Shown here piece by piece: positions 19,851-31,726 of a DNA stretch of 31,726 bases. How positions within the stretch are numbered: the first letter of the stretch is position 1; each line of letters begins with the position of its first letter. This stretch comes from a virus. The position numbers were made by a program, and so were the translations under genes. The notes beneath the pieces are model-generated. The model did not search any database and was not told where the DNA came from. It worked only from the letters and a program-made list of their open reading frames with translations. The stretch covers positions 1 through 31,726 of the IMG/VR virus record IMGVR_UViG_3300031920_000626; one strand, given 5' to 3'.

Positions 19851-20244
19851 AAGGATTGATTCGGTAGGAGTCGTCGTCAAAATGCTGAGTGGAGAATTCA
19901 AACATTTCGCTGTCTTCAAGAGCTACAATTTGATGAACTCTTCCTGGTGGGATATAGAAATTATCTCCCGGACTTAAGATAATAGAATCGAGATAGTCAA
20001 GGATAGGGATGGCGCTCCCTGCAACAGCAAATGCCAAGAGACTTAAATTATCTGAATAATAGAGCTTAACTTTTCCCGTCGAAATGTAAAATGTCTCGTC
20101 CTTTAATTTGTGGTAATGAGCTGGGAATCCCTGGTCTTTGGCGATGTTGAGAAGCTTCCCGCAATATTCTTTTTTGTTTACTATCCACTTTTCCCATCCC
20201 CAAGATTTAGGAACAAAATGCATTTTTGGTTGGTCATTGTTCAA
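19849..20244 (-). CDS. Cupin, mannose-6-phosphate isomerase type II-like
   Basis: This 131-residue single-domain cupin has HYHKLKDETFYISTGKV (43-59), where His43, His45 and Glu50 form the first cupin metal motif, and PPGRVHQI (99-106) with His104 as the last ligand. The closest style is the C-terminal isomerase domain of mannose-6-phosphate isomerase/GDP-mannose pyrophosphorylase proteins, or stand-alone sugar isomerase cupins. The substrate is not fixed by sequence; a sugar-phosphate or nucleotide-sugar isomerase is likely from context. The start is TTG at 20242-20244, because a perfect GGAGGTGA lies five bases before it and it overlaps the kinase stop as TTGA. It is the last gene of the sugar operon, before the intergenic region. 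Confidence 0.8.
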   Translation of the reverse strand: MNNDQPKMHFVPKSWGWEKWIVNKKEYCGKLLNIAKDQGFPAHYHKLKDETFYISTGKVKLYYSDNLSLLAFAVAGSAIPILDYLDSIILSPGDNFYIPPGRVHQIVALEDSEMFEFSTQHFDDDSYRINP

Positions 20245-21080
20245 AATTCACCTCCAGTGTGCCTTTTGAGTGTTGAGTGCATTGCGACCTGATTGGCGTA
20301 CATCGCGGCAGAGGAGACCATCTTTGTTTTCAAATAAGAGACTACAAACCCAGCTAAAAAGACATCCCCACAGCCGATAATATCAGGATTTTCAATTTTT
20401 TCGGGTTGGGAATAAGTTGCCGAACAGAGGCCGTCATTCCACAAGGAACATCCTTCTGCTCCATTAGTTACTATCAGGTTTTTCTGTGTGCTTGTCCCAA
20501 ACGCTGCGCTAAATTCTTTGTGGTTTATCTTGATGAACTTTTGTTCGATATTCCTCCAGATTGTAAGGTCGCTTTTCTTTGTGTCAATGAACACTGGTTT
20601 ACTAAACCTCTCCAGCTTTTCTATGGTTTGTTCGTTTACAACTCCTTTATCATAATCACTGACAACAACAGCGTCATAATAACTTAAGTCAACGTATTTG
20701 AAAATATAGTGATATTCTTCCAGCGCCCAATCTTCAAATCTTTTTTTATTGTCTATCCGCACAATCTGTTTGTTTGTTTCAGAGTTGATCACTCTTGTTT
20801 TGACCATCCCGTCATTATTCCAGAGTTTGTAGCTGGTAGCTGTTCCTATTTCTTTCTTTCCAAGCATTGAGTTGCTTCTTTTTGACAGGATACTCGAAAC
20901 ATCTATAAAGTCCTCTGAGAGCGATTTAAGGTTGGCAGCGACGTTCAGACACCCACCTAGCTTGTAATCGTCTGAGATCGCGTCTAGGACGTCTACAGAG
21001 GGATCTTCTGGGGACCTTCTTGAGATAGTTCCGTACTGATAATGGTCAAGCATTGCGTCGCCAATTACTAAGATTTTCAC
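20241..21080 (-). CDS. D-glycero-beta-D-manno-heptose-7-phosphate kinase-like (HldE N-domain)
   Basis: This 279-residue PfkB/ribokinase-family protein opens with ILVIGDAMLDHYQYG and ISRRSPEDPSVDVL, closely following the HldE/RfaE kinase domain. It continues with LGGCLNVAANL (41-51). GCGD at 236-239 carries the catalytic aspartate of the family near the C-terminus. In Gram-negative cells this step phosphorylates heptose-7-P to the 1,7-bisphosphate on the way to ADP-heptose for LPS cores. The length matches a single kinase domain. The partner adenylyltransferase is a separate gene upstream, with a 56-residue ORF between. The start is GTG at 21078-21080 with GAGGAGG seven bases upstream. Another PfkB sugar substrate cannot be excluded, but the pairing favours heptose. 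Confidence 0.83.
   Translation of the reverse strand: MKILVIGDAMLDHYQYGTISRRSPEDPSVDVLDAISDDYKLGGCLNVAANLKSLSEDFIDVSSILSKRSNSMLGKKEIGTATSYKLWNNDGMVKTRVINSETNKQIVRIDNKKRFEDWALEEYHYIFKYVDLSYYDAVVVSDYDKGVVNEQTIEKLERFSKPVFIDTKKSDLTIWRNIEQKFIKINHKEFSAAFGTSTQKNLIVTNGAEGCSLWNDGLCSATYSQPEKIENPDIIGCGDVFLAGFVVSYLKTKMVSSAAMYANQVAMHSTLKRHTGGEF
20248..20255 (-). promoter_or_regulatory. Strong RBS fixing the TTG start of the cupin
   Basis: GGAGGTGA on the minus strand ends just upstream of the TTG at 20242-20244. The nearest in-frame ATG lies 21 bases further in and would be too distant, so the non-ATG start is favoured. Confidence 0.65.
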
Positions 21081-21247
21081 TTTTCTTCCTCCTCTTCAGT
21101 GTATGCTGATAAGAGTAGAATTACGGAGTCAGGATGGAGATAGTAACAACCTTGTTCTATTTGGTCGGCAGGATGGGACATGGTGCCATATTTTAACATT
21201 CCGCCAAGGGCTGCCTTTATTTGTTCAAATTCTTTTTTTGTTAGCAT
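21077..21247 (-). CDS. Small unknown protein between the HldE half-genes (56 aa)
   Basis: A 56-codon frame starts at an ATG at 21245-21247 with CGGAGAA eight bases upstream and ends in a GTGA overlap with the kinase gene. It begins inside the adenylyltransferase gene (23-base overlap). The product has a helical N-terminus (LTKKEFEQIKAALGG), a central SHPADQIEQGCYYLHPD and a tail of five glutamates. No motif is recognised. It may be a small subunit linking the two heptose enzymes, or simply a small phage protein. The clean overlaps at both ends and the good Shine-Dalgarno argue that it is translated. Confidence 0.65.
   Translation of the reverse strand: MLTKKEFEQIKAALGGMLKYGTMSHPADQIEQGCYYLHPDSVILLLSAYTEEEEEK
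21088..21094 (-). promoter_or_regulatory. RBS fixing the GTG start of the heptose kinase
   Basis: GAGGAGG on the minus strand lies seven bases before the GTG at 21078-21080, inside the acidic end of the 56-residue ORF. It explains the non-ATG start and couples the two genes. Confidence 0.6.
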
Positions 21248-21659
21248 TGGTTATTCTCCGAATGATTTCTGAAGTTGAGGGGAATATTCTCCGTCTCTCA
21301 TAATAGATTACTTTGTCCGCATATTCTTCGCCAATCACGTTTCCTTCCCATTCTTTTCCTTTTATCAGAATTATGCTCTCTGGATATTGAATGAGGTCCT
21401 TCAAATCTTTTGAGTTATCGAATGGAAAAATTCCTGCAATTTCCGAGAACAAGGTCAAGAGTTGTTCTTTTCTTTCTTTGAAACTGAAGATGGAGGCCCT
21501 ACCTTTGTCGAGTGAAATTTTGGAATCACTATCAATTCCGAGAAGTAGTATTCCGTTATTTTTGTCCGCTGTTTCAAGGCAAAATCTCAGGAAAGCGAAG
21601 TGTCCAGAATGAAGAACATCAAAGCAACCGTTTGCGAAAAATGTCGTCCTACTCGTCAT
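21225..21659 (-). CDS. Heptose-1-phosphate adenylyltransferase-like (HldE C-domain)
   Basis: This 144-residue nucleotidyltransferase has the signature FFANGCFDVLHSGH (7-20), where His17 and His20 form the HxGH nucleotide-binding motif of the cytidylyltransferase-like superfamily. FSFKERKEQLL and STSEIIRRI (near the end, ISSTxxI-like) fit the HldE/RfaE2 domain, which transfers AMP to heptose-1-phosphate to give ADP-heptose. The ATG at 21657-21659 is preferred because it overlaps the dehydrogenase stop (ATGA). A TTG eight codons earlier would add residues with no family match. The gene precedes the kinase with a small ORF between. Glycerol- or ethanolamine-phosphate cytidylyltransferase is a less likely alternative. 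Confidence 0.82.
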   Translation of the reverse strand: MTSRTTFFANGCFDVLHSGHFAFLRFCLETADKNNGILLLGIDSDSKISLDKGRASIFSFKERKEQLLTLFSEIAGIFPFDNSKDLKDLIQYPESIILIKGKEWEGNVIGEEYADKVIYYERRRIFPSTSEIIRRITNANKKRI

Positions 21660-22531
21660 CGCCACTTCTTGGCACTTGTACAATATTCCCCTGTCACCTG
21701 AGGGAGGTCTTCCCAGTCTCGGTCTGATCTGTCGAGAAGATTCCTTGTCCAGACAGTTTCTAAAATCAAAGGGTCCAAGTCATTTTCTTTTGCCAGGGCA
21801 ATCAATCCGTTAAGATCTTTCGGGAAACATGATTTTGACCAACCTCGGCCATCTTCTCCAGGAACCTTCGTGTGGCTGTCAGTTATTCTTTTGTCCCTGG
21901 TTACAATTCCTATGACAGAATTATAGTCAATATCTGTCTTTTCGCAGATGTCGTAGATTTCATTGCAGAAAGAAACTTTCATTGCAAGAAACGAGTTGGC
22001 GACATATTTTGCCATTTCGGCAGCATCGCTTGTCGTTTCGATAATCTCTGCAGGATTCTTTTGTGTCTTCGTGAATTCGATCATCAGGTCAAGAAGGTCA
22101 ATATTATTCGCTCGATCCGAAACACCAGAGAGCCCCAATATGATTCTATCTTGATTGAAGAAATCATTGAAAGCGTTGTTTTCTGTCAAATATTCTGGAC
22201 AGAAGACAAAGTCATGGGACAGATATTTTTCAGCCAACCTTCGTGTTGTTCCGGGGATTACTGTGCTTTTGATCACAATCATTTTTCTTTCGTCTGTTAG
22301 TTGATTTATTTCATCAACAACAGATTCGACAATAGAAACGTCGCATGATCCGTCTGCACTCATTGGCGTGGGGACACAAATAAAAATAATATCACTCTCA
22401 TCAACGACCCTGTTCAGAGAGCAAGAGCATTCAAACTTGTCATAAGTTATTGTGTTTGCGGCTTGTTGAAAGCCAATTTCAACTGCCGACCCTACGAATC
22501 CGCTCCCTATGATTCCAATTTTGTTTTTCAT
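21656..22531 (-). CDS. Short UDP-glucose/GDP-mannose dehydrogenase-family protein
   Basis: This 291-residue NAD-dependent sugar dehydrogenase homologue has the Rossmann start IGIIGSGFVGSAV, CVPTPM (52-57), STVIPGTT (89-96), PEYLTE, AEMAKYVANSF (171-181, catalytic-type Lys175 and Asn179) and GRGWSKSCFPKD (228-239) with the catalytic Cys235. These residues oxidise the C6 hydroxyl of a nucleotide sugar to a uronate in the family. Standard members are about 390-450 residues. This one ends soon after the cysteine domain and so lacks most of the C-terminal nucleotide-sugar-binding Rossmann domain. No frameshift remnant is evident, since the next gene starts at once. Substrate specificity may therefore differ. 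AGGAAGAG precedes the ATG. Confidence 0.83.
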   Translation of the reverse strand: MKNKIGIIGSGFVGSAVEIGFQQAANTITYDKFECSCSLNRVVDESDIIFICVPTPMSADGSCDVSIVESVVDEINQLTDERKMIVIKSTVIPGTTRRLAEKYLSHDFVFCPEYLTENNAFNDFFNQDRIILGLSGVSDRANNIDLLDLMIEFTKTQKNPAEIIETTSDAAEMAKYVANSFLAMKVSFCNEIYDICEKTDIDYNSVIGIVTRDKRITDSHTKVPGEDGRGWSKSCFPKDLNGLIALAKENDLDPLILETVWTRNLLDRSDRDWEDLPQVTGEYCTSAKKWR

Positions 22532-23578: not shown

Positions 23579-24583
23579 TTAAGTTGCCGGTTTGTCAATA
23601 CTTCTTGTTGCCTCAATAGATTGCTGAAGCAACTCACACACTCCGGGATAGAGACCTATTCGAGGTCGATAACCGAGAGTTGTACTTGTCTTATCGATCG
23701 AAGCGAGCGTTTCTTTTGATTCCCCGGTCCTTAATGGGAGGAGAACTTTACAGAAACCTTCTCTCTCTGTTATTTTTTTTGCAATTCCAATTACCATATC
23801 TGCGACTTCCATAATTGAATAATTAACTCCGGTCCCGACATTAAAAACTTCGCCCGATATTTGTTCGGTGTCTCTATCCATCAGTGCTTTCATAGCTAAA
23901 AGATTGGCACTGACGACATCGCTTACGTGAGTAAAGTCTCTCTTTTGTTCGCCTGTTCCTACTATCGTTAGGGGTTTGTTATTCAAAACTTGATTTATGA
24001 ATAAGCCAACGACTGGAGCGTGTTTTCCTTCTAGGGGAGAATTTTTTCCATAAACGTTGAAATATCTGAGAATTATGTTATTGATTCCGTGAAGCTTTCC
24101 CCAAGTCTGACAGTAAAGCTCCCCCATAAGTTTGGATACAGAGTATGGTGTCTGACAATTTGGAACAGCGTCGGGCATACAGGGCATTTCTGCATCTGGC
24201 CCGTAACAGCTCGAAGAAGATGAATAGATAATATTCTTAATCTGAAGCATCTTCATCATCTCAAGTACATTTAGTGTTCCTCTGACATTTGTTTCGTTGG
24301 TGAGAAAAGGTTTCTGTATTGACGGTTGAATTCTTGCCTCGGCAGCAAGATGGAACACTCCCTTTGCCCCCTGGAAATAGGAGTAAGCACTTGACAGATC
24401 ATTCCAATTCGAGATGTCTATGTTCAGAAATTTCAGTCGTTCATGTTTCGGGATGTTCCTCTCAAATCCTGAGGACAGATTATCGACAACAATCACGCTC
24501 TTGCCGAATGAAAGTAATTGATCGGCCAAGTGCGACCCAATAAATCCAGCTCCGCCTGTGACTATGAATGTGCTCTCGTTCAT
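23579..24583 (-). CDS. NAD-dependent nucleotide-sugar epimerase (GalE/WbpP-like SDR)
   Basis: This extended short-chain dehydrogenase has 334 residues. The NAD-binding motif is TGGAGFIGSH (9-18), the active site has SSSSSCYG (121-128) and YSVSK (147-151, catalytic Tyr147 and Lys151), followed by LRYFNVYG. LAAEARIQPSIQKP and the length place it with UDP-hexose or UDP-N-acetylhexosamine 4-epimerases such as GalE and WbpP. It would change the C4 configuration of a nucleotide sugar for the neighbouring transferases. The ATG overlaps the stop of the GT4 gene (ATGA). Whether it acts on acetylated or plain hexose cannot be decided from sequence alone. Confidence 0.85.
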   Translation of the reverse strand: MNESTFIVTGGAGFIGSHLADQLLSFGKSVIVVDNLSSGFERNIPKHERLKFLNIDISNWNDLSSAYSYFQGAKGVFHLAAEARIQPSIQKPFLTNETNVRGTLNVLEMMKMLQIKNIIYSSSSSCYGPDAEMPCMPDAVPNCQTPYSVSKLMGELYCQTWGKLHGINNIILRYFNVYGKNSPLEGKHAPVVGLFINQVLNNKPLTIVGTGEQKRDFTHVSDVVSANLLAMKALMDRDTEQISGEVFNVGTGVNYSIMEVADMVIGIAKKITEREGFCKVLLPLRTGESKETLASIDKTSTTLGYRPRIGLYPGVCELLQQSIEATRSIDKPAT

Positions 24584-25503
24584 TTGCTCCCCTTTAAGAT
24601 TCTTTCGTATTGTTTGAGATAATCTTTCGCAATTTTAACGTTGTTGAAATTATCATGTGCATATTTTCGACACCCTTCGTGGTCAATTTTACCCACCTTC
24701 AACATAGCTCTGAGGATATCTTGATCCGAATCGCACAAGAAAGCAACATCTTTATTGAGTATTTCTATGTGGGCAGCAGTGTTTCTTGCAATCACTGGCG
24801 TGCCTGAAATCAAAGCCTCAACATTTACTAAGCAGAATGCGTCTCTTATCTTACCTATATTCAGAACTGCCTTAGCTTTTGACAGGACCTCGGCTTTCAC
24901 CTTCCCGTTGATTGCTCCAAGATATTCTATCTTATCATCACAATTCTCTTTTATCAGGTTTATCATCTCTTGATTATTGCCTGTTCCCGCAATTTTCAAA
25001 TTGAATTTGTATTGCCTCGCCAGGTAGATAGAAGTGAGCAGACCCTTTGCCTCTCCCCAATCAGTCCCGGCCATCCATAAAAAATAATCATCTTTTTGGT
25101 CAGAGAAAATGAAATCTTCAGGAGAAATACAGTTATGAACATAGTGCGGGCAGCTTAATCTGTCTGAGATGTACTTGCTGATACAGATTATATGAGGGCT
25201 GTTTTTGATTTCTTCTAGCCAATCAGGGTCGCTTTCGTGCCCGCCACCGTGAATTGTGTAGGCCCAAGGTTTGCCAAAACTTTCGCAATATTCGAAGTCC
25301 TGATGATGAAAGTGAATTATGTCTGTGTCTTCTGGGATTTCCTGTACGATAGGCACAGGGGCCGAAACAGACGAAGGGAGTACCTTCATATAGACATCGT
25401 GCCCTAGGGCCTTTAAACCGGCTGATAAGCTCTCTACGACCCTTTCTGTCCCCATACTATCTTTCGCCGGAGCATGATAATCACAGTATTGTACTATTTT
25501 CAA
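24580..25503 (-). CDS. GT4 family glycosyltransferase
   Basis: This is a 307-residue GT-B-fold transferase. The N-terminal domain has the acceptor-side glycine-rich region near DSMGTERVVESLS and IIHFHHQDF. The C-terminal domain has LKIAGTGNNQEM and the family donor-binding segment RDAFCLVNVEALISGTPVIA (220-239); Glu229 matches the second Glu of the E-x7-E motif, while the first is Asp221. It is somewhat shorter than the usual 350-380 residues. The start is TTG at 25501-25503 with GAGGGAG six bases upstream, and the gene overlaps the dehydratase gene by 23 bases. It would transfer an activated sugar from the operon; the acceptor is unknown. Confidence 0.82.
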   Translation of the reverse strand: MKIVQYCDYHAPAKDSMGTERVVESLSAGLKALGHDVYMKVLPSSVSAPVPIVQEIPEDTDIIHFHHQDFEYCESFGKPWAYTIHGGGHESDPDWLEEIKNSPHIICISKYISDRLSCPHYVHNCISPEDFIFSDQKDDYFLWMAGTDWGEAKGLLTSIYLARQYKFNLKIAGTGNNQEMINLIKENCDDKIEYLGAINGKVKAEVLSKAKAVLNIGKIRDAFCLVNVEALISGTPVIARNTAAHIEILNKDVAFLCDSDQDILRAMLKVGKIDHEGCRKYAHDNFNNVKIAKDYLKQYERILKGSK

Positions 25504-26422
25504 AACGGGCTCCCTCGTAGAATTTGATGATTTTGGCGATCTCAGTTTTGAGTTTTCTTTCCTGCTCCCACCCTAATTCTTTCTTTATTTTGGAGCTGTC
25601 AAGGGCATATCTGATATCTTGTCCTGGCCTGTTGGGAACAAAATCAGTAGTGTCTGAGCTAATTTCTTCACCAAATTGAGACAAAACAATATCAATTATC
25701 TGTAAAACGTCATACTCTTCATCACTGGAAATATTATACAATTCACCGTCTGTTCCTCTTTCCATCACTTGCAGAATCGCATCACAATTATCTTTTACGT
25801 GAATCCAATTTCTGATATATTCGCCTGTTCCGTGTATCAATATCTTTTCATCATTCAGAAATCGGTTAATGCAATTTGGTATCAATTTCTCATAATGCTG
25901 TCTGGTTCCGTAATTATTTGTCGTTCTCGTTATCCTGTAGGGAATGTCAAACGTTCTGCCCCATGCTCCAATTAACATTTCTGCACATGCTTTTGTTGAG
26001 GCGTAGGGGTTGCTTGGATTTCTGTAGGTGGTCTCTTTGAATGACCCATCTATGATATCGCCGAACACTTCGTCTGTTCCGATGTAGGTCAGTGTTGGTT
26101 TATTTTTTTCTTTCCGGATTAACTCTAAGAGATTGTATGTTGCCAAGATATTGCTCTCTATGAAAATTGCACTATCTTCAATGGAACAGTCTACAGAAGA
26201 TTCTGCAGCAAAATGAACAATATGTTCGCACCTCGGCAGGGTTTTTAAATCCTTGATGTCAACTTTCGTAAATGAGTAATTCTCAGATTCTGGTGAGAAA
26301 TTAATATTTGATGCATAGGTAACCTTGTCGTAATTAATTACCCTGTATCCCTTCTTCAGGGCTAGTTCTATGAAGTGAGAACCAATAAACCCAAGACCAC
26401 CTGTAACCAATATTGTACTCAC
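25481..26422 (-). CDS. NDP-glucose 4,6-dehydratase, RmlB-like
   Basis: This 313-residue extended SDR has VTGGLGFIGSH (6-16), HFAAESSVDCSI (70-81), GTDEVFGD (115-122) with Asp117 and Glu118 as the catalytic acid-base pair, YASTK (140-144), and NNYGTRQHYEKLIP, a close form of the RmlB signature. The family turns a nucleotide-diphosphoglucose into the 4-keto-6-deoxy sugar, the entry step to deoxysugars. It is slightly shorter than typical RmlB (about 350). The gene directly follows the E1/RfbH-like dehydrase, whose expected substrate is just such a 4-keto-6-deoxy sugar. The start is GTG at 26420-26422 overlapping the previous stop (GTGA). The nucleotide could be dTDP, or CDP as in RfbG pathways. 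Confidence 0.85.
   Translation of the reverse strand: MSTILVTGGLGFIGSHFIELALKKGYRVINYDKVTYASNINFSPESENYSFTKVDIKDLKTLPRCEHIVHFAAESSVDCSIEDSAIFIESNILATYNLLELIRKEKNKPTLTYIGTDEVFGDIIDGSFKETTYRNPSNPYASTKACAEMLIGAWGRTFDIPYRITRTTNNYGTRQHYEKLIPNCINRFLNDEKILIHGTGEYIRNWIHVKDNCDAILQVMERGTDGELYNISSDEEYDVLQIIDIVLSQFGEEISSDTTDFVPNRPGQDIRYALDSSKIKKELGWEQERKLKTEIAKIIKFYEGARFENSTIL
25510..25516 (-). promoter_or_regulatory. RBS fixing the TTG start of the GT4 gene
   Basis: GAGGGAG on the minus strand lies six bases before the TTG at 25501-25503, inside the end of the 4,6-dehydratase gene. It supports the non-ATG start and coupling. Confidence 0.55.
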
Positions 26423-27762
26423 TTGTCACCACTGAAAAAGCTTTCTACTACTTCCTCTATGTACTTTATTTTCTCTTCTGTTATTCCAATGAACGTCCCG
26501 ATGAAGAACGAATTCGTGGTAACTTGCTTGGCAACCGGGAAGTCTTTGCTTAAATCTGGAGAGATTGTTTTAGCTAGGTCGGAGTATCCCGAGTGAGCAA
26601 GAATGTTCCCGCTGAAGTATGACCTAGTTTGAATTCTGTTCTTCTCTAGGTGGTCTACGAACTGTTGTTTGGTGAATGTTGCCCCTTCTTTCACTGTTAG
26701 GAGATAGGCAAACCAACATGGGTCTGAATTCTTTTCAGCAACAGGAAGATGAAAATGCTTCTCATGTTTCTTGAATATTTTGCTCAAGCTTTTGAAATTA
26801 TTTCTTCGGCTCTCATCAAATTTATCGACTTTCTTTAGTTGTTCAAGACCCATTGCCGCCTGCAAATCTAGAGGTTTAAGGTTGTAACCTACTTCATTGA
26901 ATACATATCTGTGATCGTATACAACCTCCGGAAATCCTGGCAACCATTTTTTAAATCTGTTCTTGCAAGCAGTCTGCGCCACTACATTTCCCGGAGTTTT
27001 CATGTTGCAGAAACAGCCACGACCCCAATCTCGAAGGCTGTACAAAACCTTGTGAGCGTTGCTGTCGTTGGTTGCTACAAACCCTCCCTCTCCTGTCGTT
27101 ATGTGGTGAGCAGGGAAGAAGGAGCAGGTAGATAAGTGCCCGAAAGCTCCAAGTTTGGTGCCATTATACGTTGACCCTAGCGCGTCACAGGAGTCCTCGA
27201 ACAAATACAAATTATATTTTTTGACAAGCCCCATGAGCCTGTCCATGTCTGGAGGGTTGCCGAGAACGTGAGCGAACATTATTGCTTTTATGTCCCCGTG
27301 CTCTTCTAATTTCTGTTCTACTTGGTCCAAATCTAGGTTCAACGAAGGCAAGGTTACATCCACAAAGACGGGAGTGAACCCTAGCTGCAATATCGGATTG
27401 AGAGTGGTAGGGAAACACACAACTGGGGTTAAAATCTTGTCCCCATTCTTCATATTGTACAGATTTGGTGACTTTGCTGCAGCCATCATCAACAGATTCG
27501 CTGAGCTTCCCGAGTTAGTAAAAATGCCCCTGGTCCTCCCGAGCAAGGGCGGGAACTTTTGTTCAAAAATCTTAGTTTGTGGGCCAACTATGAGCCATTC
27601 GTCCATCAAAGACCTGACTGCAGCGACATATTCGTTCTCGTCATACACTGCGCCCGAGTAGGCGACCCAATCCTTGTCCTTGTCCCAAGTGGAGTCCTGT
27701 TTTTCTTGGTAAAATTCCCTAAGAAGCTGCAATATTTTTTCTTTTTTCTCTTCCAAAGACAT
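26419..27762 (-). CDS. E1/RfbH-type PLP 3-dehydrase with Fe-S cysteine pattern
   Basis: This 447-residue protein of the DegT/DnrJ/EryC1/StrS fold has SFFPAHHITTGEGG (214-227), where His220 stands in place of the PLP-binding lysine. This is the mark of RfbH/E1-type sugar C3-dehydrases (and of ColD-like enzymes) rather than aminotransferases. Cys192, Cys250, Cys252 and Cys266 give C-x57-C-x-C-x13-C. E1 is known for C-x57-C-x-C-x7-C, which holds a [2Fe-2S] cluster. NSGSSANL (83-90), FEDSCDALGS and YNLKPLDLQAAMG support the fold. The expected reaction removes the C3 hydroxyl of a 4-keto-6-deoxy nucleotide sugar and needs an E3-like reductase, not seen here. It precedes the 4,6-dehydratase. The longer last cysteine spacing is unusual. 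Confidence 0.85.
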   Translation of the reverse strand: MSLEEKKEKILQLLREFYQEKQDSTWDKDKDWVAYSGAVYDENEYVAAVRSLMDEWLIVGPQTKIFEQKFPPLLGRTRGIFTNSGSSANLLMMAAAKSPNLYNMKNGDKILTPVVCFPTTLNPILQLGFTPVFVDVTLPSLNLDLDQVEQKLEEHGDIKAIMFAHVLGNPPDMDRLMGLVKKYNLYLFEDSCDALGSTYNGTKLGAFGHLSTCSFFPAHHITTGEGGFVATNDSNAHKVLYSLRDWGRGCFCNMKTPGNVVAQTACKNRFKKWLPGFPEVVYDHRYVFNEVGYNLKPLDLQAAMGLEQLKKVDKFDESRRNNFKSLSKIFKKHEKHFHLPVAEKNSDPCWFAYLLTVKEGATFTKQQFVDHLEKNRIQTRSYFSGNILAHSGYSDLAKTISPDLSKDFPVAKQVTTNSFFIGTFIGITEEKIKYIEEVVESFFSGDK

Positions 27763-27770
27763 GGGGACTC

Positions 27771-28598
27771 CTAGTAAAGGTGTTCAGTGTAACACTTGTG
27801 TGTCTTCATCATTTCTGGGTGTCTGCCTGTGAAGTCTCTGTACTTGTTTTGTTCAAAAAAGGCCCAATTCTTGTTCATATAGTGGGCATAAAATTCTTCT
27901 GCCACACTGTTTTCGAAATTCTTGTAAAATTCATACTTTGCTTTGATCCTGTCGTACCCAACGCAGCTGTAGTGGAAGGGTCTTAGCATTTTTGGATAGT
28001 CAAAGTTGGCTTTTAGCACGTATTCTGGGGTGTTTGGGGGGCGGGGTTCGTTAATTCCTCCCGCATAAATCCAAATATTTTTGTCAGGGTAAAACATCCC
28101 TGCCCCTCCCTCTGTTAGCACTGCGTCGGGGGTCAATTTAGAGATTCTTGGGTTGCGAAAGTCCTTAAAATGCCAAAAATCAGGAGCAAAATAGTTCATC
28201 CAAACATTTAGCCCCAAAATGTTGTTCTTGTCGCATTTTCCAAGGAAGTTTTTCATGGGAGAGAGGGCCGCTTTTGGCCATATTTCGTCAGCTCCGCACA
28301 AAAACAACCAATCCCCGCCCATTTTTTTTGCCATTTCCACGGCAGGAGTAAGTGACTCCCCGTGCGTTTTTGGTTCTTTTTCTGAAAGGATTAAATGACA
28401 TTTTGTGCTTTTTTTCAACCATTTGTCGATAATTTCAGGAGTTTTGTCTGTCGATCGGTGACCAAGACCTATTTCTAGTGAATCTTTCATGCCGATATCG
28501 ACAATGATCAGCTCATCAACAAAATCATGAACAGAAGAAATGGCATAATCGAGAAATAGCTCCTCATTATACGCCGGAATCATCCCTATTAATTTCAT
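27771..28598 (-). CDS. GT2 family glycosyltransferase B
   Basis: This 275-residue GT-A-type transferase has IGMIPAYNEELFLDYAI at the start, GHRSTDKTPE at 46-55 and LFLCGADEIWP at 98-108. In the last, the usual DxD reads G-A-D, so the first Asp is lost and Asp104 kept. The C-terminus has TGRHPEMMKTH, the same G-K/R-HPE-x-M ending as GT2 A at 22528, and both are Trp/Tyr-rich, so the pair look paralogous. The altered metal motif may mean metal-independent or changed activity. The gene starts in an ATGA overlap with the transketolase C-part and ends nine bases before the dehydrase gene. Acceptor and donor are unknown. Confidence 0.82.
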   Translation of the reverse strand: MKLIGMIPAYNEELFLDYAISSVHDFVDELIIVDIGMKDSLEIGLGHRSTDKTPEIIDKWLKKSTKCHLILSEKEPKTHGESLTPAVEMAKKMGGDWLFLCGADEIWPKAALSPMKNFLGKCDKNNILGLNVWMNYFAPDFWHFKDFRNPRISKLTPDAVLTEGGAGMFYPDKNIWIYAGGINEPRPPNTPEYVLKANFDYPKMLRPFHYSCVGYDRIKAKYEFYKNFENSVAEEFYAHYMNKNWAFFEQNKYRDFTGRHPEMMKTHKCYTEHLY

Positions 28599-29518
28599 GC
28601 GAGCCCCTCATAATTTGACGCGAAATTGTAGATATCTTCTTCTGATATTCCCGCCGTTTTCCTTAGAAAATCCTGGTCGCCGACTGTTTTATTCACGACA
28701 TTTGGTATCGAAAAGCTCTTAATTGGAATGGTCTGCTTATTCGAGTAAAGCAACTCAATTATTGAAGAAGCTAACCCATTGTTGTCTATATTTTCTTCAG
28801 CAACTATGACTATTTTCTTGTCTTTTATCGAGCTTAAAATCAGAGAATCATCCAAGGGCCTTATTGTCGGCAAAGAAACAACACAAGATTTTATGCCTTG
28901 TTTGTCTAACCTTTTTGCCACGTTCGATACGACCGACAGCATTCCTCCGGAAACAAAAAAACATATTTCATTTCCTTCTTGGACAGTGATTCCTTTTCCT
29001 ATTTCAAATTTTGTTCCCTTTTTATGCACTATGGGTTCTCCTCCTCTTCCTATCCTGAGATAAGATGGACCTTGTTTTTTTATCATGTTGTGAGTTAGAA
29101 CAGATGTTTCTATTGGGTCTCCCGGAGAAAGAATATCAATGCCTGGGAGAGATTTAATCAGAGAAACATCGTCAATTCCGTAGTGTGTCGGCCCGCCGAG
29201 TCCGTAGCTATAGCCTGCCCCAACTCCTACAATTTTGACGTTAAGTCCGTTGTAAATTATGTCGTTCCTTATCTGCTCTAAGCACCTAATACTCACGAAA
29301 GGAACTATTGAATATACTATTGGGATGAATCCTTCGAGTGCCAGGCCAGCTGCCACGCCTATCATGTTGGCTTCTGCAATCCCCATGTTCAAAAATCTGT
29401 CAGGATATTTTTTTCGTATAGGATCGAACAATTTAAACCCTAAATCTCCCGTCAAGAAGATAGATTTTTCCTCGTAATCACTAATCTCTTCAATAGCTTT
29501 GAAAAAACTATTTCGCAT
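28595..29518 (-). CDS. Transketolase-like, C-terminal (pyrimidine-binding) subunit
   Basis: This 307-residue protein covers the second half of transketolase/DXS-type enzymes. FLTGDLGF lies near the start and MGIAEANMIGVAAGLA follows at 45-60, where Glu49 is the glutamate that activates thiamine diphosphate. GVGAGYSYGLGGPTHYG, DILSPGDP and YLRIGRGGEP come next, then a C-terminal transketolase domain. It pairs with the N-part gene just upstream; split transketolases act as heteromers. The ATG at 29516-29518 lies inside the end of the N-part gene (11-base overlap) and gives a standard family start; a more distant in-frame start would add 16 unrelated residues. In this operon it may move a two-carbon ketol unit onto a sugar, or supply sedoheptulose-7-phosphate. 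Confidence 0.83.
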   Translation of the reverse strand: MRNSFFKAIEEISDYEEKSIFLTGDLGFKLFDPIRKKYPDRFLNMGIAEANMIGVAAGLALEGFIPIVYSIVPFVSIRCLEQIRNDIIYNGLNVKIVGVGAGYSYGLGGPTHYGIDDVSLIKSLPGIDILSPGDPIETSVLTHNMIKKQGPSYLRIGRGGEPIVHKKGTKFEIGKGITVQEGNEICFFVSGGMLSVVSNVAKRLDKQGIKSCVVSLPTIRPLDDSLILSSIKDKKIVIVAEENIDNNGLASSIIELLYSNKQTIPIKSFSIPNVVNKTVGDQDFLRKTAGISEEDIYNFASNYEGLA

Positions 29519-30290
29519 CAGATATCTCTTTGATCGCTGCCTGTAATTCTTCTGAGTTTGGGACACGATAGTGCCATTCTAATACGTTTTCCATGAAAGA
29601 AACACCCTTTCCTTTGACTGTATCGAGAGAAATAACGAAAGGCCGATGCCATCCTTTTGAAAAATGTTTGATTTCGACCAATTTTTTAAAGTCATGACCG
29701 TCAGTGCGGAGAGCATTCCAATTAAATGAGTTGAAAATTTTAATCAAATCACTGTTGAACACGTTCGAGCATTTGTCCAGGGCCTGATAGTTGTTGTTGT
29801 CGATGATACAGACTAGGTTGTCCAAATTTCTGGCCCCTGCGAATGCCGCTGCTTCCCAAACACTCCCTTCATTGCACTCTCCATCGCCTACTAAACAAAA
29901 AACACTGCCCTTTTCCTTCTTGATTTTCTTTGAATAAGCAATTCCGGCAGCAACAGACAGCCCGTGACCTAGTGACCCGGTCCCCACCCTTACTCCTGGA
30001 ATGTTATTGCTTGGATGCTCGCACAATAGGCTTCCGTTTTTGCAAAAATCATCATAGGTTTTTCTTGAGATGACCCCTTTTTCCATTAAAACGGAATACA
30101 GGGCGAGACCTGCGTGACCCTTACTCAAGATAAACTCGTCTTCTTCCTCCATTATGGAAAAATAGAGAGCAACTAAGGCCTCAACACATGAAAAATTGGG
30201 CCCAATGTGAGGCGTTTTGGTCGCAAAAGAGGATTTAAGAATGTTTTTTCTGATCTCTTTTGCGACCAATTTTAGGTCATTTTGATTCAT
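29508..30290 (-). CDS. Transketolase-like, N-terminal (TPP-binding) subunit
   Basis: This 260-residue protein is the thiamine-diphosphate-binding half of a split transketolase. LSKGHAGLALY (55-65), GTGSLGHGL (103-111) and GDGECNEGS (135-143) followed by IDNNN (163-167) make up the family TPP/Mg motif (GDG with a downstream Asn). EGSVWEAAAFAGARNLDN is typical. The C-terminus includes TVKGKGVSFMEN, again family-like. It begins inside the end of the SDR gene (14-base overlap) and its end overlaps the C-part. Both halves are of normal length, so a working enzyme is likely. Its place in a deoxysugar operon, rather than with pentose-phosphate genes, suggests a specialised substrate. Confidence 0.85.
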   Translation of the reverse strand: MNQNDLKLVAKEIRKNILKSSFATKTPHIGPNFSCVEALVALYFSIMEEEDEFILSKGHAGLALYSVLMEKGVISRKTYDDFCKNGSLLCEHPSNNIPGVRVGTGSLGHGLSVAAGIAYSKKIKKEKGSVFCLVGDGECNEGSVWEAAAFAGARNLDNLVCIIDNNNYQALDKCSNVFNSDLIKIFNSFNWNALRTDGHDFKKLVEIKHFSKGWHRPFVISLDTVKGKGVSFMENVLEWHYRVPNSEELQAAIKEISDAK

Positions 30291-31197
30291 TTTGGTACCA
30301 TTCTATGGTTTTTTTGAGCCCTTCTTCTAGGCTAAATTTCTGTTCCCAACCTATGCTTTTCAGTTTTGTGTTGTCAGCGACCCAAAGTTTTGATTCTTTA
30401 GGGGTGGTGCCTAAGTAATTCCATGGACATTTAGGTTTCAGTCCTGTTAGTTTTATCACAATCTTCGCAATTTCTTCAATCTTTGTTGACTCTCCTGACC
30501 CTAGGTTGTAGATTTCTCCGCTGACCAGCTGGTCTGTCATATTCAATGCATCAATTACATCCTGCATGTAGACAAAATCTCGCATGGCATAAGGATTAGT
30601 GATGCTGATCAACTGCTCCTTAAGTGTCCTCGTGATAACTTGATACACAAGCCTTGTTGATTCCTCGAAAGGACCATAAACACTGAAGGGTCTTATCGTG
30701 CAGACAGGTTTATTTTCTTTTTTCGCGTAGTATTGACACAGGTTTGTCTGAGCAGCCTTGGCCACCCCATAGCAACTGTAGGGATTTAGCCTGTCATCTT
30801 CCCTCATTGGTGAGTCACTGTGGCCATATTCTGATGAACTACCCACATTAACGAACATTTCGTAGTCAATCCAGGCCGAAGCTTCGAGTAAATTGTTCGT
30901 TCCTATGATGTTTGTGGTCAAAATGTCGTTATTGATGGTGTGAAAGTGATAACTCCCGAGCGTTGCTAGGTGATAGATAATGTCCGGTTTGGACCAATTT
31001 ACGATGTCTTGAAGGCTATTTCTGTCCCTTATGTCCACTTTTTGCAGATATATGTGCCTTCTTATGTCTTTTAGTCGCCAAGATTCCCCTGAATTGCTTG
31101 TAGTGGCGAAGATATTGTGCCCTTTGTCGAGCAAATCCCTCACAAGGTTAGCGCCAATGAACCCACTGGCTCCTGTTATCAGTATGTTCTTAGACAT
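30277..31197 (-). CDS. SDR sugar reductase/epimerase
   Basis: This 306-residue extended short-chain dehydrogenase has LITGASGFIGANL (6-18), YHLATLGSYHF, SSSEYG (120-125), YGVAK (143-147, Tyr143 and Lys147 catalytic) and RPFSVYGPFEEST. The style is that of CDP- or GDP-deoxysugar 4-ketoreductases and epimerases (abequose/paratose synthase type, or GDP-mannose-related). With the E1-like dehydrase and RmlB-like enzyme it could reduce or epimerise a 4-keto-3,6-dideoxy intermediate. The ATG is 15 bases after the methyltransferase stop. The stop overlaps the transketolase N-part. The exact substrate cannot be read from sequence. Confidence 0.8.
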   Translation of the reverse strand: MSKNILITGASGFIGANLVRDLLDKGHNIFATTSNSGESWRLKDIRRHIYLQKVDIRDRNSLQDIVNWSKPDIIYHLATLGSYHFHTINNDILTTNIIGTNNLLEASAWIDYEMFVNVGSSSEYGHSDSPMREDDRLNPYSCYGVAKAAQTNLCQYYAKKENKPVCTIRPFSVYGPFEESTRLVYQVITRTLKEQLISITNPYAMRDFVYMQDVIDALNMTDQLVSGEIYNLGSGESTKIEEIAKIVIKLTGLKPKCPWNYLGTTPKESKLWVADNTKLKSIGWEQKFSLEEGLKKTIEWYQNESK

Positions 31198-31212: not shown

Positions 31213-31726
31213 TTACCTATTTACGATTCTTATGACTTGTTGTTGCCTGGAACCTGACTGGGGGCTGACAAATTCTATGTCTTTCTCTTTTGCGAAGTCG
31301 TTCCACACGCCAGATAGGCCAGTTTGCCAGTCATGGAAGACCAGTATAGACCCCTGAACCAAGAAACTGTCGCAGAAATCCAATACGGTTCTTGCGCTAG
31401 AGGCCAGGTCGCAATCAATATGCACTAAATCGATGTATTTCAGCCTAATTTTTTCCTGTAGATTTTTGTCAGAAAGAGTGTCTTCGTACATTCCTTCAAC
31501 AAGGAATATATCATCGATATTCCCTAGTTTTTCCGACATCTTTGTTTCGGTGTTTTCTCTGCTGGAGGAATAATCCCCCTCTTTCCAAGATTCGCTTGAA
31601 GAAGGGAGCCCCATGAAGCTGTCAAATCCGCACAATTTGTTGTCCATATTGTTCTGTCTCATGAACAGTGACATTTCAGACAGAGAATGACCTTCAAATA
31701 CCCCGAATTCTAGGACATGACCGTTG
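31213..31726 (-). CDS. TylF/macrocin-O-methyltransferase-like, 5' end outside window
   Basis: The frame is open to the right edge, so the true start lies beyond base 31726; about 170 residues are visible. The first visible residues contain VLEFGVFEGHSL, the glycine-rich SAM-binding motif I. KLCGFDSFMGLP, the acidic strand YIDLVHIDCDLASSA and GSILVFHDW follow, all in the order seen in TylF-type class I methyltransferases. These usually methylate a sugar hydroxyl in natural products or polysaccharides. An internal Met at 31672-31674 is unlikely to be the start because motif I lies before it. It is the first visible gene of the sugar operon, so O-methylation of the final glycan is a natural inference. 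Confidence 0.8.
   Translation of the reverse strand, partial: NGHVLEFGVFEGHSLSEMSLFMRQNNMDNKLCGFDSFMGLPSSSESWKEGDYSSSRENTETKMSEKLGNIDDIFLVEGMYEDTLSDKNLQEKIRLKYIDLVHIDCDLASSARTVLDFCDSFLVQGSILVFHDWQTGLSGVWNDFAKEKDIEFVSPQSGSRQQQVIRIVNR

Follow-up and report, generated by a model that had tools for sequence, protein, structure and literature searches.

The 31.7-kb virus record IMGVR_UViG_3300031920_000626 (31,726 nucleotides, analysed over its whole length and hereafter called the window) carries a sugar cluster that probably encodes a phage-borne pathway to a nucleoside diphosphate (NDP)-3,6-dideoxy-4-C-branched hexose, with a split transketolase (TK) as the predicted branching enzyme. What appears to be new, and is supported by sequence comparison, is a branching pathway of the yersiniose kind in which a transketolase takes the place of YerE and which is widespread in uncultivated phages. 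The window is a T4-like phage contig. Its left part comprises baseplate, tail-fibre, lysis and late-sigma-like genes, and the sugar cluster occupies about 20-31.7 kb on the minus strand. An earlier note on this DNA had read an E1/RfbH dehydrase, an RmlB-like enzyme, a split transketolase and a short-chain dehydrogenase/reductase (SDR) at 25481-31197 as a possible route to a 3,6-dideoxy sugar with a ketol-derived branch. The four enzyme types are confirmed by Pfam matches far beyond chance, and all genes that it named are complete open reading frames (ORFs) on the minus strand. In the order of transcription, the run comprises:

30277..31197, minus strand: SDR of the NAD-dependent epimerase/dehydratase family, with YxxxK, predicted to reduce the branch or a keto group (Pfam Epimerase 5e-48)
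29508..30290, minus strand: N half of the split transketolase (TK-N), which binds thiamine diphosphate (ThDP) (Transketolase_N 2.8e-27)
28595..29566, minus strand: C half of the split transketolase (TK-C), with pyrimidine and C-terminal domains (Transket_pyr 1e-23, Transketolase_C 1.8e-18)
27771..28598, minus strand: GT2-type glycosyltransferase, between TK-C and RfbH (Pfam Glycos_transf_2 1.3e-10)
26419..27762, minus strand: E1/RfbH, an NDP-4-keto-6-deoxyhexose 3-dehydrase dependent on pyridoxamine phosphate and [2Fe-2S] (DegT 2e-78, NF011936)
25481..26422, minus strand: RmlB-like NDP-hexose 4,6-dehydratase (GDP_Man_Dehyd 2.3e-61, TIGR01181, motifs)

Adjacent frames of the SDR/TK/RfbH/RmlB-like run overlap or abut in an operon-like manner, and the four gene types (SDR, ThDP enzyme, RfbH, RmlB-like) all lie inside 5.7 kb. 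The adjacency claimed earlier holds for this minus-strand run, but not gene by gene: the GT2 gene, which had not been mentioned, intervenes between TK-C and RfbH.

We infer the following course of synthesis, in which the substrate order, the nucleotide (TDP or CDP), the ketol donor, the branching site, the product and its final use are all predicted. The RmlB-like enzyme would yield an NDP-4-keto-6-deoxyhexose, from which E1/RfbH, supplied with electrons by a host reductase, would remove O3. On the resulting NDP-4-keto-3,6-dideoxyhexose, the C4 ketone would accept a two-carbon ketol that the split transketolase takes from a ketose or hydroxypyruvate, which would create a tertiary alcohol. The unit delivered by a transketolase would be hydroxyacetyl, so that a 4-C-hydroxyacetyl sugar is expected, whose new keto branch the SDR would reduce to dihydroxyethyl. 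Neighbouring glycosyltransferases would attach the sugar to host lipopolysaccharide (LPS) or to a virion glycan.

This scheme resembles the yersiniose A pathway (RfbF/RfbG/RfbH plus E3, YerE and a branch ketoreductase): a 4,6-dehydratase, E1, a ThDP enzyme and an SDR are clustered, and the predicted product is a 3,6-dideoxy-4-C-branched hexose. The acceptor to which YerE attaches a two-carbon unit is CDP-4-keto-3,6-dideoxyglucose (PMC12247030), the product of the 4,6-dehydratase and of E1 with its reductase. Unlike the yersiniose A system, the window is phage-borne and has a split transketolase for YerE and an RmlB-like enzyme for RfbG, and no RfbF or E3 gene is seen in it. The branch would be hydroxyacetyl/dihydroxyethyl, in contrast to acetyl/hydroxyethyl in yersiniose A. 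RfbF, RfbG and YerE are all absent from the annotated ORFs of the window, whose contig is truncated upstream.

Evidence for a branching role of the transketolase comes from related viral loci. An alignment of the window RfbH with the RfbH of phage L045 served as query; 517 relatives were retrieved, and the best 80 loci, selected by similarity to the query, were read. (Single-protein scans of viral contigs with the window RfbH or TK halves gave almost no matches, whereas two-sequence alignments worked.) Gene classes were called by hidden Markov models, and each class was checked once against Pfam/PDB. Some of these IMG/VR contigs may be bacterial; several share a T4-type late-sigma-like gene with the window. 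RmlB is encoded in 76 of the 80 loci and mostly abuts RfbH, as does its counterpart in the window. In 62 loci, a ThDP enzyme is encoded: it belongs to the acetolactate synthase (ALS) type, i.e. the YerE/JanthE superfamily, in 33 and to the split-TK type in 29, and no locus has both. Dereplication of the RfbH sequences at 90% left 64 loci (25 ALS-type, 24 TK-type, none with both). Under independence, the chance of such a lack of overlap is 1e-7. The commonest gene orders are ALS-SDR-RfbH-RmlB (23 loci) and TK-SDR-RfbH-RmlB (18 loci), so that ThDP-SDR-RfbH-RmlB forms a single unit in 41 loci. The window order SDR-TKN-TKC-GT-RfbH-RmlB departs from the commonest one. On the RfbH tree, the ThDP type switches about 13 times, which equals the frequency with shuffled labels. 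Therefore, the branching enzyme is freely exchanged in one slot of the cassette. The window SDR matches the model of the cassette SDR (SDR280) at 5.7e-19; the window GalE-like protein does not. The set of SDR, RfbH and RmlB with either ThDP type is widespread in uncultivated phages and not unique to the window.

For the ALS-type protein of locus L118, the best PDB match is 8rph with 432.6 bits (next 236). 8rph is JanthE, a YerE-like enzyme that couples to ketones (PMC12188165). JanthE/YerE-like lyases convert ketones to tertiary alcohols (PMC12247030, PMC12188165), and their relatives fill in sister viral cassettes the slot that the transketolase has in the window. They differ from the window transketolase, as they belong to the decarboxylase-type ThDP superfamily, are single-chain and use an alpha-keto acid donor. 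Since a YerE-like enzyme can stand in for a TK-type enzyme, and vice versa, beside an otherwise constant set of SDR, RfbH and RmlB, the simplest reading is that both use the same 4-keto-3,6-dideoxy acceptor. The minimal TK-type pair of locus L106 (6060-7167) has an N half of 216 aa and a C half of 158 aa that consists of the pyrimidine domain alone. Such mini split transketolases, with a TK-N of about 205-250 aa and a TK-C of about 157 aa, are found in most TK-type loci in L103-L182. Their TK-C does not contain Transketolase_C (checked with Pfam on L106), and they would be unusually small transketolases.

A bacterial operon points in the same direction as the viral cassettes. In the Pelagibacteraceae genome G609 (locus L098, minus strand), CDP-glucose 4,6-dehydratase (RfbG), an RfbH-like protein, TK-N, TK-C, an SDR and a glycosyltransferase are encoded together. 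The 4,6-dehydratase scores 432.9 bits with TIGR02622 (cut-off 278). The RfbH-like protein has His at the catalytic position and is devoid of the Fe-S cysteines. In another bacterial locus, L085 (Omnitrophota), RfbF, RfbG and a TK pair are encoded, and no 3-dehydrase was seen. Together with the slot sharing in viral loci, the G609 operon supports, at the level of sequence, the 3,6-dideoxy sugar with a ketol-derived branch that had been proposed earlier. Both observations also speak against a different acceptor class, which we regard as very improbable: if, for example, the pair used a free aldehyde, or a carbonyl (keto or aldehyde) generated by the products of the GalE-like or UDP-glucose-dehydrogenase-like genes, the sugar would be chain-extended instead of C4-branched. 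Such an acceptor would fit the neighbourhood of further split-TK clades, which adjoin acyl-carrier-protein/LuxE-type or SIS/HAD/AroE-type genes. Given these diverse neighbours, the superfamily as a whole probably has several acceptors.

The dehydrase and the RmlB-like enzyme were examined at the residue level. The window RfbH scores 466.9 bits with NCBIfam NF011936, above the curated cut-off of 423, and aligns over its full length with 3bcx, the E1 of Yersinia pseudotuberculosis (9e-94). In this alignment, the lysine that binds pyridoxal phosphate is replaced by His (E1 H220; FPAHHITTGEGG). C193, C251, C253 and C261 of 3bcx, the [2Fe-2S] ligands of E1, are kept in all four positions. By these residues the window RfbH is assigned as an E1 3-dehydrase, not an aminotransferase, since His220 and the four Cys are present; the earlier worry that it could be an ordinary aminotransferase is thereby ruled out. 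Its viral-contig relatives, with identities of up to 65%, retain H220 in 80 of 80 cases and the four Fe-S Cys in 79. The RmlB-like protein carries the catalytic motifs TDE (TDEVFG) and YxxxK (YASTK), and its closest PDB structure is 2hun (1.5e-71). With TIGR01181 it reaches 325.9 bits, under the cut-off of 365.1. For this reason it is called RmlB-like and not certified RmlB; the earlier assignment to the RmlB type stands in this weaker form.

The transketolase pair is catalytically complete. It comprises Transketolase_N, Transket_pyr and Transketolase_C with the catalytic His, Glu and ThDP residues: residue mapping found H28, H59, H92, D136, N166 and H240 all present in TK-N, and TK-C retains the catalytic Glu and His. 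In an ordinary transketolase, H461 holds the substrate phosphate and D469 the aldose hydroxyl (E. coli numbering). Both columns (numbered after E. coli TktA) are occupied by Gly in the window TK-C. The nearest PDB entries are 6yak for TK-N and 6yaj for TK-C, the split transketolase of Carboxydothermus hydrogenoformans, which has the same domain split and catalytic residues. In contrast to the window pair, it keeps H461 and D469 and falls outside the sugar-cluster clade. In the trees, the window pair is separate from central-metabolism transketolases, from 6yak and from a split transketolase beside transaldolase (L006). Its TK-N clades with those of L098, L063, L020 and L085 (support 0.81), all beside CDP-glucose enzymes (RfbF/RfbG). 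The earlier note had considered that the pair might group with central-metabolism enzymes, and this is not the case. It is accordingly quite improbable that the pair is a ketol transferase of central or sugar-phosphate metabolism, i.e. that it serves as an auxiliary metabolic gene for the supply of pentose or heptose phosphates and has no part in the branching of nucleotide sugars. Such a role would suit the top PDB matches, which are genuine transketolases, the occurrence of pentose-phosphate genes (e.g. for transaldolase) in cyanophage loci, and the HldE-like kinase and cytidylyltransferase genes of the window. It is opposed by the loss of the H461 and D469 equivalents, by the separation from L006 and 6yak and by the constant company of sugar-nucleotide enzymes and glycosyltransferases.

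A more serious alternative, though still rather unlikely, is that the cluster makes two sugars. The SDR and the TK pair, perhaps with the methyltransferase at the contig end, would form a branched sugar from an NDP-4-keto-6-deoxyhexose or another keto-sugar, and RfbH and RmlB a plain 3,6-dideoxyhexose, with glycosyltransferases dividing the modules. The glycosyltransferase between TK-C and RfbH in the window means that the TK pair and RfbH-RmlB could serve different sugars. The Legionellales locus L063 has the order RfbF-RfbG-...-SDR-TKN-TKC, in which a 3-dehydrase was not found. Cyanophage S-H68 and the marine virus AG-345-D19 encode RmlB and RfbH, with no TK in the stretch examined. A His-type dehydrase is near 9 of 64 TK loci that lack H461/D469 and near 1 of 10 that keep D469 (Fisher p = 1.0). 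Hence, an association of the H461/D469 loss with a nearby dehydrase of this type is not statistically supported. On the other hand, the window has no other 4,6-dehydratase that could supply the transketolase, a ThDP enzyme occurs in 49 of the 54 viral RfbH loci whose flanks reach 5 kb or more on both sides, and ThDP-SDR-RfbH-RmlB is one unit in 41 loci.

Several further observations count against a single pathway with the transketolase as branching enzyme. Most bacterial split transketolases lacking H461/D469 have no 3-dehydrase within about 10 kb. The loss of both residues is common to sugar-cluster transketolases of several contexts and so does not by itself name the acceptor. The window pair is full-length, unlike the mini type prevalent in viral cassettes. 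An E3 reductase with the plant-type ferredoxin motif C-x4-C-x2-C-x(22-36)-C is absent from the window ORFs and the 80 loci; host reductases may serve RfbH instead of a dedicated E3. The window cluster finds further parallels in other loci. Phage L045 encodes a TK pair, RmlB and an RfbH that is 54% identical to that of the window, and in L095, L014, L042 and the phages L032-L037, ColD-like His-type enzymes adjoin TK pairs. With the SDR that precedes the TK pair of the Omnitrophota locus L074, the window SDR shares 38% identity. The RfbH-bearing cyanophages (S-H68, S-B05, S-B43) resemble the window in that RmlB and RfbH are part of a phage glycan cluster (S-H68). S-H68 differs from it in that no ThDP enzyme was found beside RfbH.

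Keto-sugar-accepting transketolases have been discussed before. In the miharamycin/amipurimycin clusters, hydroxyacetyl transfer to a keto sugar by split transketolases was proposed (PMC12247030), and the split transketolase Rif15 acts in vitro on the ketone of rifamycin S (PMC6002545). These enzymes are encoded by two genes like the window pair and originate from Streptomyces/Amycolatopsis natural products. Unlike the branching proposed here, Rif15 forms a C-O bond. According to a review of 2025, transketolases that accept keto sugars are so far a proposal from Streptomyces clusters and untested; in the part that it devotes to transketolases, neither an LPS nor a phage example is given (PMC12247030). 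For the SDR step, a precedent is Pau7 from paulomycin synthesis, a dedicated ketoreductase for the C4 acetyl branch (PMC4753412). A paper on marine viruses lists rfbH among viral auxiliary genes and does not mention transketolase (PMC10653327). Literature searches for RfbH with transketolase or for branched sugars of phages found nothing relevant, and a demonstration of transketolase use in surface-sugar building was not found in the literature either.

On balance, we lean towards the view that the synthesis of surface glycans has recruited transketolases to branch sugars, a role in which they would be interchangeable with YerE-like lyases. Marine phages would carry and repeatedly swap such modules and thereby yield a new class of 4-C-glycolyl/dihydroxyethyl 3,6-dideoxyhexoses in phage glycans or host LPS. 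With the window and its relatives, dozens of split transketolases are available whose biochemical setting is clear, and the sister clusters with YerE-like enzymes provide an internal reference; whether transketolases accept ketones thus becomes directly testable. In phage contigs, putative routes to branched deoxy-sugars occur commonly. The frequent exchange of their branching enzyme suggests that the structure of the sugar is under selection, which may serve to change receptors or to shield the virion.

In the order of transcription, the window cluster comprises a truncated TylF-like methyltransferase, SDR, TK-N, TK-C, GT2, RfbH/E1, RmlB-like, GT1, GalE-like and a further glycosyltransferase. 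Three flanking genes were assigned:

31213..31725, minus strand: TylF-like/class I methyltransferase, truncated by the contig end (Methyltransf_24 2.2e-10, TylF 6.5e-8)
24580..25503, minus strand: GT-B (group 1) glycosyltransferase, overlapping the RmlB-like gene (Glycos_transf_1 2.6e-10)
23579..24583, minus strand: GalE-like NDP-sugar epimerase (galE 179 bits, below the cut-off of 262)

Because the contig ends within the methyltransferase gene, the genes upstream of the cluster are missing from the window. A later modification of the sugar by the methyltransferase is possible. At 20241-21683, a PfkB-type kinase is found beside a cytidylyltransferase-like protein, resembling a split HldE (heptose) pair. 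For the UDP-glucose dehydrogenase-like gene at 21656-22531, the C-terminal domain typical of the family was not matched. The window GT2 has a homologue with 44% identity in phage locus L004, which has three glycosyltransferases and a GalE-like gene in common with the window.

TK or DXS genes also occur in many Listeria, Staphylococcus and Acinetobacter 'phage' records that appear to be bacterial contaminants; TK-half matches in Listeria LM, fecal and Acinetobacter MD-2021a 'phage' records are apparently bacterial DNA and were excluded from the evidence. A TK-C/SDR fusion in L002/L031 was rejected, as the reading frames are broken there and the related L042 has separate genes. In L063 (12164-14198) and L020, sulfotransferase-like and kinase-like genes are located between RfbF/RfbG and SDR-TK, suggesting further sugar decoration in these Legionellales. 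In another group (L011, L012, L015-L019, L024; in Pantoea, Erwinia, Dickeya, Pelagibacteraceae and Eubacterium), split transketolases lie beside genes that, by reading of the sequences, look like acyl-carrier, AMP-ligase and LuxE/LuxC-type genes. The phage split transketolases of L004 (4621-6921), L005 (5226-6927) and L049 keep H461/D469 and have Gln instead of the catalytic H473; those of L004 and L005 adjoin SIS-isomerase-like and AroE-like genes.

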